This document shows, piece by piece, positions 1,214 to 9,074 of a stretch of 64,000 nucleotides of DNA (its first letter is position 1; every line of letters begins with the position of its first letter). The stretch comes from Methanocaldococcus sp. FS406-22 (GTDB lineage Archaea; AGJL01; Methanococci; Methanococcales; Methanocaldococcaceae): the NCBI RefSeq assembly GCF_000025525.1, contig NC_013887.1, forward strand, positions 816,729 to 880,728. The letters run 5' to 3'. A program made the translations under genes and the position numbers. Below the pieces are notes generated by a model. The model saw only the letters and a program-made list of their open reading frames with translations, made no database searches and was not told where the DNA came from.

Positions 1214-3187
1214 ATGTCCCCAAGAGTTGGGGTATTTGTCTGTTACTGTGGAGCGAACATCAACGGTGTTGTTGATTGTGAAGCAGTAAGAGATTTTGCT
1301 GAAAAATTAGATGGCGTGGTTGTAGCTAAGACATATCCTTTTATGTGTGCTGACCCAGGACAAAACTTGATTAAAGAGGCAATAAAGGAATACAACCTCG
1401 ATAGAGTTGTTGTTGCTGCATGTACACCAAAAATTCACGAACCTACTTTTAGAAATTGTATAAAAGAAGCAGGTTTATCTCCATATTACTTGGAGTTTGT
1501 TAATATCAGAGAGCATTGTTCATTTGTCCACATGCATGAACCAGAAAAAGCAACTAAAAAAGCAATGGAGTTAGTTGCAGGTGCTGTTGAAAGAGCTAAG
1601 AGATTAGAAGATGTTCCACAAAAAGTTGTAGACGTTGATAAATCTTGCCTAATCATTGGAGGAGGTATTGCTGGAATTCAGGCAGCCCTTGACTTAGGAG
1701 ACCAAGGGTATAAAGTATATTTAGCTGAAAAAGAGCCATCAATTGGAGGTAGGATGGCTCAGCTTGCTAAGACATTCCCAACTGATGACTGTGCGCTGTG
1801 AATTTTGGCCCCAAAGATGGTTAGCGTTGCAAACCACCCCAATGTTGAACTCATTACCTATGCTGAAGTTAAAAATGTTGAAGGATACATTGGAAACTTC
1901 GAAGTTACAATTGAAAAGAAACCAAGATACGTTGATGAAAATATCTGTACAGGATGTGGGGCTTGTGCCGCAGTATGTCCAATAGAAGTGCCAAACGAGT
2001 TTGACTTAGGTTTAGGAACAAGAAAAGCTATCTATGTTCCATTCGCACAGGCAGTTCCTTTAGTATATACAATTGATATGGATCACTGTATAAGATGTGG
2101 GTTATGTGAAAAAGCTTGTGGTCCAGGAGCTATAAAGTATGATCAAAAACCAGAGGAGATTAAGTTAAAGGTTGGGACAATCATCTGTGCAGTTGGTTAT
2201 GACGAATTTGACTGTACACTAAAAGAAGAGTATGGTTACGGAGTCTATGATAACGTCATAACAACCTTAGAATTAGAAAGAATGATTAACCCAGCAGGAC
2301 CAACAGGAGGACATGAAATAAGGCCAAGTGATGGAAAGCATCCACATAGAGTTGTATTTATCCAGTGTGTTGGTTCAAGGGATGCAAAAGTTGGAAAACC
2401 ATACTGTTCAAGAATCTGTTGTATGTTTGCTTTAAAGAACGCTCAGCTTATAAAACAACACGACCCAAGTACAGAAGTTTATATCTGTTACATGGATATC
2501 AGAGCGTTTGGTAAAGGTTATGAAGAATACTACAGAAGAGCTCAAGAGCAGTTTGGAGTTAAATTCATTAGAGGAAGACCAGCCTGTATAATGGAAGACC
2601 CAGAGACAAAGAACTTAATTGTTAGAGTAGAAGATACATTATTAGGAGAAATCGTAGAGATTGAAGCAGATTTAGTTGTATTGTCTGCTGGTTTATCACC
2701 AAGACCAGACAATCCAAAATTAGCTAAGATGCTTGGTTTAGAATTAAGTCCAGATGGATTCTTCAAAGAATTACATCCAAAGTTAGCTCCAGTTAATACA
2801 AAAGTTGATGGTATAGCAATTGCTGGGGTAGCTCAAGGGCCAAAAGATATCCCAGATACAGTAGCTCAGGCTAAAGGGGCTGCAAGTGCTGTTTCAATAC
2901 CGATGGCACAGGGACAATTCAAAATTGAGATGATAAGAGCAGTTGTTGATGAGGATGTATGTGGAGGTTGCCAAGTTTGTGCTAAGATGTGCCCATACAA
3001 CGCTATAACCTATGTAGAGAAAGATGGACATTTAGTAGCTCAAGTTAATGACGTTGCTTGTAAGGGATGTGGAGCATGTGCTGGAGCATGTCCAAGTGGA
3101 GCAATGCAGTTAAGATACTACAGAGATGAGCAGATAATCTCATTCATTGATGGAGTATTAGAAGCTCATCAAAAGTTAGAGAGCTAA
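1214..3187 (+). CDS. hdrA: Heterodisulfide reductase subunit A, selenocysteine-containing
   Basis: HdrA is the FAD-bearing, electron-bifurcating subunit that links hydrogenase, ferredoxin and CoM-S-S-CoB reduction. The start ATG 1214 follows GGAGGTGA; an upstream GTG-type start at 1181 has no ribosome site. The frame runs through TGA 1799-1801 (codon 196) to TAA 3185-3187, 657 residues. The UGA lies in FPTDDCALU, where relatives have Cys, so it encodes Sec. Other marks are the FAD fold GGGIAGIQ (about residue 150), two central ferredoxin clusters ([25 protein letters not shown]) and two C-terminal ones ([24 protein letters not shown]). It heads the vhu/fwd cluster, and its own SECIS lies 63 bases downstream. 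The segment just after the UGA (1809-1843) is complementary to the RNA at 8901-8936. Confidence 0.95.
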
Positions 3188-3250
3188 TAAACTATTAAAT
3201 TATGTCATAAATTACGAATTCAACATTAGGACAGATAAGACCAGATGAGG

Positions 3251-3280
3251 CATCACCCGAAGGATTATGCCAGGGTGGTG
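3251..3280 (+). promoter_or_regulatory. SECIS element of hdrA
   Basis: An 8-bp stem (3251-3258 with 3273-3280, one U-G pair) encloses GAA (3259-3261), a GG/CC pair step (3262-3263 with 3270-3271), a six-base loop and a single A (3272). This is the archaeal SECIS plan: GAA opposite A with a short GC stem above. It lies in the 3' UTR of hdrA, as expected for archaea. Confidence 0.85.
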
Positions 3281-3365
3281 CTGATGTTGCAAGTGCTTCT
3301 ATCAATTGAATCTAATTCCTATCATCTTATCGTTGTATAATATAACAATAATTGAGGGGTTAGTT

Positions 3366-3791: not shown

Positions 3792-3826
3792 GTTCTCTCG
3801 GGAACCCGTTAAGGGACCGAGAGAAC
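3792..3826 (+). promoter_or_regulatory. SECIS element of vhuD
   Basis: A perfect 10-bp stem (3792-3801 with 3817-3826) with GAA 3802-3804, CCC/GGG (3805-3807 with 3813-3815), loop GTTAA and the opposing A3816. It is enclosed by an outer helix 3772-3778 with 3849-3855 that begins one base after the vhuD stop, and it shares that junction with a second hairpin (about 3832-3846). Confidence 0.92.
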
Positions 3827-6233: not shown

Positions 6234-6234
6234 G

Positions 6235-6267
6235 CCCACAACCGAACCCAATTTGGGAGGTTGTGGG
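6235..6267 (+). promoter_or_regulatory. SECIS element of vhuU
   Basis: A 9-bp perfect stem (6235-6243 with 6259-6267), GAA 6244-6246, CCC/GGG (6247-6249 with 6255-6257), loop AATTT and A6258. It directly follows the vhuU stop codon. Confidence 0.93.
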
Positions 6268-6272
6268 TATTT

Positions 6273-7544: not shown

Positions 7545-8852
7545 ATGGTAAAGGTTGTTAGAAACGTTGTCTGTCCATTCTGTGGGACTTTATGTGATGA
7601 CTTAGAGATTTTGGTTGAAGACAACCACATAGTTGGAACAAGACATGCTTGTAGAATTGGTAACGCTAAGTTTATGCACTTTGAAGGGGCTGTGAGATAT
7701 ACAGAGCCATTGATGAGAGAAAATAAAAAGGATGAGTTCAAAAAAGTTGATTATGAAACTGCAATTGAAGAGACTGCAAGACTATTAGTTGAATCCTCAT
7801 TACCTTTAATTTACGGATGGAGTGCTACTGAATGCCACGCACATATGTACGGGGTTGAGTTAGCTGAATTGGTTGGGGCTGTTATTGATAACACTGCAAG
7901 TGTTTGACACGGGCCTTCTGTTCTGGCATTGCAGGATGTAGGATACCCGGTCTGTACCTTAGGAGAGGTTAAGAATAGAGCTGATGTAATTATTTATTGG
8001 GGTTCAAATCCAATGCACGCCCACCCAAGGCATATGAGTAGGTATTCAGTATTTGCGAGAGGATTTTTCAGGGAGAGGGGTAGAGAGGATAGGACTTTAA
8101 TTGTCGTTGACCCAAGAGAGACTGATACTGCAAAGTTGGCAGACGTGCATTTGCAGGTTGAGCCTCATAAGGATTATGAGTTAATTAGTGCAATGAGGGC
8201 TGTATTAAAAGGCTTTGAATTGCAAGTAGATAAAGTTGCAGGAGTTCCAGTTGATTTAATCTATGAAGCTATGGAAATATGTAAGAATGCCCAGTTTGGA
8301 GAGTTGTTCTTCGCTATGGGAGTAACAATGACAAGAGGTAAGCATAGAAACATTGACAATGCCATCCAATTGGTTATTGATTTAAATGCTTACACAAAAT
8401 TCGGACTAATGCCAATGAGAGGACACTACAACGTCAATGGATTCAACCAAGTATTAACATGGGTTACTGGTTTCCCATTTGGAGTTGATTTCTCAAGAGG
8501 ATATCCAAGATACAACCCAGGAGAAACAACAGCTAATGACTTGTTGCAGAGAGGAGAGACTGACATGATGTTAAACATCGCTTCAGACCCTGGGGCACAC
8601 TTCCCACAAAAGGCAGTGCAACATATGGCAAAGATACCATTAGTTTGTATCGACCCACACGAAACACCAACAACTCAGTTAGCTAACATTATAATTCCTC
8701 CAGCAATTGCTGGAGTTGAGGTTGAAGGAACTGCTTATAGAATGGATGGAGTTCCAATTCAGTTGAGAAAGGTTATAGACCCACCAGAGGGTGTTTTACC
8801 AGATAGAGAAATATTGAAGATGCTCATTAAGAAAGTTAAAGAGATGCTCTAA
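7545..8852 (+). CDS. fwdB: Formylmethanofuran dehydrogenase subunit B, selenocysteine-containing
   Basis: FwdB carries the molybdopterin active site that reduces CO2 to a formyl group in the first step of methanogenesis. ATG 7545 follows GGGGTGAATCCCTT. The frame reads through TGA 7905-7907 (codon 121) to TAA 8850-8852, 435 residues, the usual length. The UGA lies in [18 protein letters not shown], where Cys or Sec ligates the metal in this family. The N-terminus has [10 protein letters not shown], the usual 4Fe-4S site. The segment after the UGA (7931-7948) is perfectly complementary to 8934-8951 in the region after the gene, and the fwdB-associated SECIS is at 8967-8998. Confidence 0.95.
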
Positions 8853-8870: not shown

Positions 8871-8878
8871 TATAAATA
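8871..8878 (+). promoter_or_regulatory. TATA box in front of the antisense/SECIS RNA
   Basis: TATAAATA preceded by the purine-rich AAGAAAAG that fits a BRE. It lies 18 bases after the fwdB stop. Its centre is about 27 bases before 8901, the exact start of complementarity to hdrA, so it predicts a transcript starting there. Confidence 0.6.
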
Positions 8879-8900
8879 TTAGATTTGTATTTAATGAGAT

Positions 8901-9010
8901 ATTGGGGTGGGCGTGCAACGCTAACCATCTTTGGGGTATCCTACATCCTGCGTTGACACGTCGTATGTTGGAGGGGAACCCGTAAGGGACCCTCCAACAC
9001 TTTATTATTT
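8901..9010 (+). ncRNA. Candidate small RNA: hdrA and fwdB antisense segments joined to a SECIS
   Basis: Seen in the sequence: 8901-8910 pairs with hdrA 1834-1843; 8914-8936 pairs perfectly with hdrA 1809-1831 (23 bp); 8934-8951 pairs perfectly with fwdB 7931-7948 (18 bp). Both targets start within 25 bases after a Sec UGA. A hairpin closes around these segments (8912-8915 with 8957-8960 and 8916-8921 with 8950-8955), followed by the SECIS at 8967-8998 and a T-rich stretch near 9001-9013. A TATA box is correctly placed for a start at 8901. Inference: either a separate RNA or the fwdB 3' UTR uses base pairing to place a SECIS near UGA codons, or to control their reading. The RNA's ends are guesses. 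Confidence 0.6.
8967..8998 (+). promoter_or_regulatory. SECIS element of fwdB
   Basis: A perfect 9-bp stem (8967-8975 with 8990-8998), GAA 8976-8978, CCC/GGG (8979-8981 with 8986-8988), loop GTAA and A8989. Same core as the vhuD and vhuU elements. Confidence 0.93.
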
Positions 9011-9074
9011 TAGACAGTTAAATTTGTTAATTCAAATATATAAATTAAAATTAAAAATAAATAAGGAGAAGAAA

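Follow-up and report, generated by a model that had tools for sequence, protein, structure and literature searches.

The window, by which is meant the whole stretch of DNA that was analysed, comprises 64,000 nt of Methanocaldococcus sp. FS406-22 (NC_013887.1, positions 816,729-880,728, forward strand). It contains a contiguous cluster of genes on one strand in the order hdrA-vhuD-vhuG-vhuA-vhuU-vhuB-fwdB, with Sec UGA codons in hdrA, vhuD, vhuU and fwdB. That of hdrA is located at 1799-1801 (CDS 1214-3187) and that of fwdB at 7905-7907 (CDS 7545-8852, stop codon at 8850-8852); these, the SECIS hairpins and the parts and targets of the element described below are on the + strand. SECIS hairpins were identified for vhuD at 3792-3826, which lies at a short distance from its UGA and serves as an untethered control, and for vhuU at 6234-6268, approximately 75 nt past the vhuU UGA. 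The supposition that hdrA has no SECIS in the window was rejected as wrong, the hairpin at 3249-3282 (23.5 bits) being the SECIS of this gene. It falls inside a match to the flpD RNA of Rfam (3241-3287) which, together with two tRNAs, was all that was detected across the whole window at Rfam curated thresholds. This flpD RNA corresponds to the hdrA SECIS atop a kink-turn-like base (GATGAGGC/GCTGAT). Upstream of hdrA there is also a G+C-rich block (900-1045) which is conserved in 10 of the 14 genomes of the genus and matches no Rfam family at threshold; it is a candidate for an unannotated non-coding RNA or leader.

A further SECIS hairpin was found behind fwdB as part of an element of approximately 8899-9012, situated in a G+C-rich block of the fwdB 3' region and made up of a segment antisense to hdrA, a segment antisense to fwdB and the SECIS itself. 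A sequence-only reading had described this arrangement, and all of its coordinates proved correct. The hdrA antisense arm (8914-8936) is complementary without mismatch, over 23 nt, to hdrA 1809-1831, which begins 7 nt past the UGA (+11..+33, with the U of UGA numbered +1). The fwdB antisense arm (8934-8951) is in the same way complementary over 18 nt to fwdB 7931-7948, 23 nt past the UGA (+27..+44). Both targets lie just 3' of their UGA and overlap in distance as that reading had stated, the range it gave (+24 to +41) being corrected to the two intervals above. The guide 5' arm (8901-8917) extends the pairing: a run of 10 nt (8901-8910) is complementary to hdrA 1834-1843 (+36 to +45), and 8905-8917 pairs with a second fwdB site of 13 nt at 8014-8026 (+110 to +122), which the reading had missed. 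This arm is conserved across the other genomes, G008 having a match of 10 nt.

The arms are followed by a linker (8952-8965) and, 15 bases on from the fwdB arm, by the SECIS hairpin (8966-8999), which scored 35.0 bits (E 1.4e-8) with R1, a SECIS covariance model of 27 sequences with both-side changes in all 11 pairs. This single hairpin is the SECIS of fwdB and also the candidate trans SECIS. As in other methanogen SECIS elements, it has a GAA/A internal loop, G-C clamps and a long basal stem; unlike them, it bears antisense arms to two different mRNAs, and three lineages have it at a site that is not part of a selenoprotein transcript. A U-rich stretch at 9001-9013 is, from its sequence, a likely terminator, and a T-rich stretch occurs after the SECIS in all copies of the element.

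The TATA box that had been taken to predict a transcript starting at 8901 is present at 8871-8878 (TATAAATA), and in most genomes a TATA-like box begins 32-35 nt upstream of GGTGGG. It also precedes copies of the element found away from fwdB in G008 (TTTATATA, 8/8) and G012 (TATATATA), is weaker in G003 and is absent in G010. In the latter, a MAG (L132, upstream of 875), the sequence ahead of the guide is unlike that of all relatives and resembles a foreign structured RNA; this flank looks as if it may be misassembled. The conserved TATA-like box fits a separate guide transcript, predicted to be approximately 100-115 nt long and to start near GGGGTGGG. As a short intergenic candidate RNA gene with a TATA-like box and pairing to mRNAs, it resembles the trans-encoded antisense sRNAs of archaea, with the difference that the guide would promote recoding rather than repress, and carries the recoding signal. 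Neither a C box (RUGAUGA) nor a D box (CUGA) occurs in 8901-9000, unlike in C/D box guide RNAs, and against Rfam the element gave no match at threshold and sub-threshold chance matches only.

The linker can fold back onto 8910-8925 and may act as a lid closing a loop that displays both arms. This helix is paired in 95% of cells and is contained in the minimum-energy fold in G000 and G013, where it covers part of the hdrA arm. This intramolecular lid was tried and rejected: it pairs, yet shows no covariation.

Specificity and conservation of the pairing

When 8901-8966 was scanned against the remainder of the 64 kb, complements of 23 nt (hdrA), 18 nt (fwdB) and 13 nt (fwdB) came out longest, and every other one is 11 nt or shorter. 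With 400 first-order Markov shuffles of the same segment the maximum complement was 14 nt (vs 23 and 18), which rules out a chance origin of the pairing. In whole-genome searches the hdrA site was the top match outside the element in nearly all genomes of the genus. The guide duplexes are predicted to remain stable at 80 °C, with energies of -20 to -28 kcal/mol, and the self-fold of the guide -0.2 to -3.9 kcal/mol at the same temperature.

Conserved protein sequence was ruled out as the cause of pairing by means of the Cys paralogs. In G000 and G013 the Cys fwdB paralogs keep 23 of the 26 residues around the site without pairing (pairing score 14-15 vs 46.5 for Sec fwdB), and pairing of the guide with the Cys hdrA paralogs is reduced and partial; G023 is an exception, its Cys copy being nearly identical. 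A second set of fwdB and hdrA genes, of the Cys type, was located at L281 (G000:C1:195500-199800).

A DNA search identified the element in 13 of the 14 Methanocaldococcus genomes, the one without it (G007) being an incomplete assembly. Because it is carried by 13 genomes the element is not an assembly artefact, as the sequence-only reading had allowed it might be. No support was found for an explanation by chance, conserved protein sequence or artefact; the conservation of the element, its covariation and the control with Cys paralogs refute it, and its probability is regarded as negligible.

The sequences of hdrA and fwdB vary among species and the guide changes along with them, so that the covariation with the codons of both genes which it had been suggested to look for was indeed found, as compensatory changes. 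The hdrA gene of G003 reads CCCCGAAG + GTCGC in place of the CCCCAAAG + GTTGC of most genomes, and the G003 guide answers with CTTCGGGG + GCGAC; fwdB of the same genome (GGACGTAGG) is matched by guide sequence CCTACGTCC. In G008, fwdB GGATTCAGG is matched by guide CCTGAATCC with an alteration of the protein (QDV -> QDS), and hdrA GTTGCG is matched by guide CGCAAC. Both-side changes were counted in 5 columns of guide and fwdB and in 2 columns of guide and hdrA, plus one further pair in G008. Compensatory changes in the fwdB arm occur in G003, G008, G012 and other genera, and those in the hdrA arm in G003 and G008. For the compensatory changes of G003, G008 and G012 the two strands are in separate loci; the guide covaries with targets encoded elsewhere, in few lineages. 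It must be set against this that the compensatory changes touching hdrA number only 2-3. By permutation, in statistics that ignore relatedness, none of 5000 shuffles was as good for the cis pairing of hdrA, for selD, for fdhA and for fwdB when all genera are taken together, and for the trans sets, which hold 3-4 distinct rows, 222/5000 and 1654/5000 were as good, which is not significant. At the level of sequence comparison, the pairing is under selection.

Antisense tethers of distant SECIS elements in Methanococcales

SECIS elements of Methanococcales that are distant from their UGA are mostly flanked by a tether, that is, a stretch antisense to a region approximately +10 to +68 past the UGA. 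Tethers were identified for fwdB, hdrA, selD, fwuB and fdhA, and none for vhuD and fruA, whose SECIS is near the UGA. In tethered genes the control windows taken from the same CDS usually all pair less well, and the longest tethers are those of hyperthermophilic genera. In the fwdB 3'UTR of other genera the same fwdB antisense (GGGTATCCTACxTCCTGC and variants) stands immediately before the SECIS. The cis tether of hdrA is 25 nt long and perfect or nearly so in G001, G002, G005, G006, G009 and G010, 15-25 nt in other thermophiles and 10-11 nt in G016 and G017; in the window a remnant of 9 nt is left at 3219-3227. A 17-nt perfect tether (+33..+49) accompanies fwuB of G001 (L271), where the SECIS is 1 kb from the UGA, and fdhA has its SECIS in the 5'UTR with the tether 3' of it. 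The selD 3'UTR opens with 17-22 nt of perfect antisense (approximately +10..+31) directly before the SECIS (L161-L190), and this tether is found in Methanocaldococcus and genus g5, most other genera lacking it. Since in the 3'UTR type the tether precedes the SECIS, pairing would bring the hairpin to the end of the duplex nearer the UGA. Such a rule offers a physical explanation, testable gene by gene, of how a SECIS roughly a thousand bases distant can act on its proper UGA.

Beyond these cases, the fwdB locus of a deeper archaeal lineage (L034) has no convincing tether, and the fwdB genes of L035-L039 are not selenoproteins at the Sec site. Loss of the tether in Cys-type fwdB was not supported, as G018 keeps a remnant. 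At L280 and L279 an untethered SECIS lies approximately 180 nt past the UGA of a short ORF (IIIHFDGFGUGGPKFGISIGQPNE), which probably encodes a HesB-like selenoprotein.

We know of no SECIS-binding protein in archaea. In bacteria the SECIS lies directly 3' of the UGA, and the tethered signal would likewise end beside the codon; the bacterial SECIS, though, is part of the ORF and is bound by SelB, whereas that of the guide would come from a second segment or molecule.

Among the tethered genes the fdhA case alone is already published: a 5'UTR SECIS of fdhA1 with flanks complementary to the ORF was reported in 2025 (PMC11881835). The earlier statement that no such system was known holds for a trans guide and fails for cis tethering. 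In the open-access literature searched, no tether for fwdB, hdrA, selD or fwuB was found, nor was a natural trans SECIS or a dual guide. The fdhA1 type and the elements described here share a conserved and covarying flank which is antisense to the stretch of ORF immediately 3' of the Sec UGA, is longer in thermophiles and by pairing would bring the SECIS near the UGA. They differ in that fdhA1 is a single gene served in cis from a 5'UTR with the SECIS distal to the UGA, whereas here the 3'UTRs of fwdB, hdrA, selD and fwuB and a dual-target trans element are concerned and the SECIS is UGA-proximal; unlike in fdhA1, pairing would not be within one mRNA where the element is separate from both genes, as in three lineages. 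When fdhA-type flanks were placed on a reporter, raw activity was unchanged and a difference of approximately 2-fold appeared after mRNA normalisation (PMC11881835), and an untethered SECIS of Methanococcus maripaludis functions at a distance of 520-679 nt from its UGA (PMC9622424). These M. maripaludis data count against a strict need for tethering, but they concern a mesophile and short flanks.

The mRNA of the tethered reporter also fell approximately 3-fold in M. maripaludis (PMC11881835). Together with the long perfect duplexes lying inside the coding region, this would suit an antisense regulator, a guide that blocks translation past the UGA or triggers mRNA decay and so tunes HdrA and FwdB to selenium supply, its SECIS acting as the sensor. 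Against such a role, the arms are always coupled to a SECIS, the pairing is invariably just 3' of the UGA, selD, fdhA and fwuB share the layout in cis, and in three lineages the loci searched hold no SECIS of their own for hdrA and fwdB; we consider it quite improbable.

Relocated copies and the proposed trans guide

In three genomes (G003, G008 and G012) the element is found away from fwdB, at three unrelated places. That of G012 is at 315 kb of C1, with fwdB at 763 kb and hdrA at 757 kb, and stands alone between fdhD-like and oxidoreductase genes, both on the opposite strand. In G003 it lies 20 nt past rsmA, 3.8 kb beyond fwdB and with an opposite-strand gene intervening, and in G008 it lies 54 nt upstream of thi4 on another contig, fwdB of this genome being itself separate from the rest of the cluster (names of neighbouring genes were read from translations). 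The UGA codons of hdrA and fwdB are retained in all three. In the HdrA tree G003 and G008 share a single deep branch, and G012 is placed apart from them, though less firmly; the element has therefore probably left fwdB on two or more occasions.

A whole-genome SECIS search misses true elements (the guide of G012, the guide and selD of G003), and the SECIS inventories therefore rest on unfiltered R1 searches of loci of 12-19 kb rather than whole genomes. In the G003, G008 and G012 loci these searches returned the SECIS of vhuD, that of vhuU and that in the guide, and no SECIS of their own for hdrA or fwdB; around G008 fwdB none was found within the 12-kb locus. A recognisable hdrA SECIS is missing from five genomes of the genus (G003, G007, G008, G012 and G013), and that of G004 is degraded (18.4 bits). 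The sequence of the element, its conservation, its covariation, its relocation and the lack of a nearby cis SECIS in the three lineages are direct observations. With the element unlinked and hdrA and fwdB without a SECIS of their own, it is very probably trans-acting there, and the guide SECIS is not on the mRNA served, as it is for fwdB of the window. The cleanest trans case is fwdB of G008 (an assembly 85% complete), which is alone in a SECIS-free 12-kb locus with a perfectly matched distant guide.

It could be argued that the arms are simply long-range tethers within one mRNA and that there is no separate RNA, fwdB using its own 3'UTR and hdrA pairing approximately 7 kb downstream in a polycistronic transcript. 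The element is directly behind fwdB in most genomes, hdrA to fwdB form a contiguous same-strand cluster, and the tethers of other genera are all in cis. Given that the element is apart from both genes in G003, G008 and G012 and is preceded by a TATA-like box, such a purely cis arrangement is improbable.

In another explanation the vhuD and vhuU SECIS on the polycistronic mRNA serve hdrA and fwdB, and the guide raises efficiency at high temperature only. The vhuD SECIS does follow hdrA in the cluster of G003, G008 and G012, the M. maripaludis SECIS acts at a distance untethered, and in G003 and G012 the vhuD and vhuU SECIS of the shared cluster might serve hdrA and fwdB in cis. There is also hdrA of G018-G020 (L145, L146 and L147), which keeps its UGA but has no tether, no guide and, in both UTRs, nothing recognisable as a SECIS; hdrA can apparently manage, therefore, without a standard SECIS, and the notion that its SECIS is lost only alongside a guide is weakened. 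Against this auxiliary role stand G008 fwdB, isolated and with no SECIS found in its 12-kb locus, and the arms conserved with covariation; it is rather unlikely.

The reading that we prefer, and hold to be the most probable, is that 8899-9012 encodes a SECIS-guide RNA derived from the fwdB 3'UTR and acting on hdrA and fwdB. The 5' half of the guide would pair with the mRNA of hdrA or, alternatively, of fwdB, and the 3' half is the SECIS hairpin, which pairing would place at the UGA-proximal side of the duplex, beside the codon recoded as selenocysteine, and so present to the recoding machinery. We infer that the guide is transcribed independently, that the duplexes form in the cell and that they affect Sec insertion. 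The element presumably originated as the cis tether and SECIS of a fwdB 3'UTR, an arrangement seen in every other genus of Methanococcales that was tested; in Methanocaldococcus it would have gained the hdrA arm and probably a promoter of its own. Where it adjoins fwdB, as in the window, fwdB may be served in cis by read-through and hdrA either in trans or within a long operon transcript; where the guide locus is separate (G003, G008 and G012) it holds the sole SECIS found for hdrA and fwdB besides those of vhuD and vhuU, and would act in trans.

The sequence-only reading was essentially right. It had left a choice between pairing in trans, pairing in cis and an on-off switch for Sec reading, and the comparative data back delivery of the SECIS by pairing, in cis in the ancestors and, it appears, in trans in three or more lineages of Methanocaldococcus. 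It is likely that the guide represents a natural trans-acting SECIS, a guide RNA evolved from a cis tether which recodes two mRNAs and has replaced their own SECIS in some species. Viral mRNAs have been proposed to capture a host SECIS by antisense tethering (Taylor; PMC11510084). In that proposal too, antisense pairing lends the SECIS of one RNA to the UGA of another; it concerns viral and host mRNAs, however, whereas the guide belongs to cells and is conserved, and compensatory changes are seen in both pairing partners. If true, it would be the first natural RNA to supply a recoding signal to other mRNAs, and would make it possible to programme the insertion of selenocysteine through base pairing alone.

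In the five genomes in which the hdrA SECIS has been lost, a short GATGAGGC...GCTGAT-like hairpin persists, suggesting that the basal hairpin of the flpD RNA has a second function.
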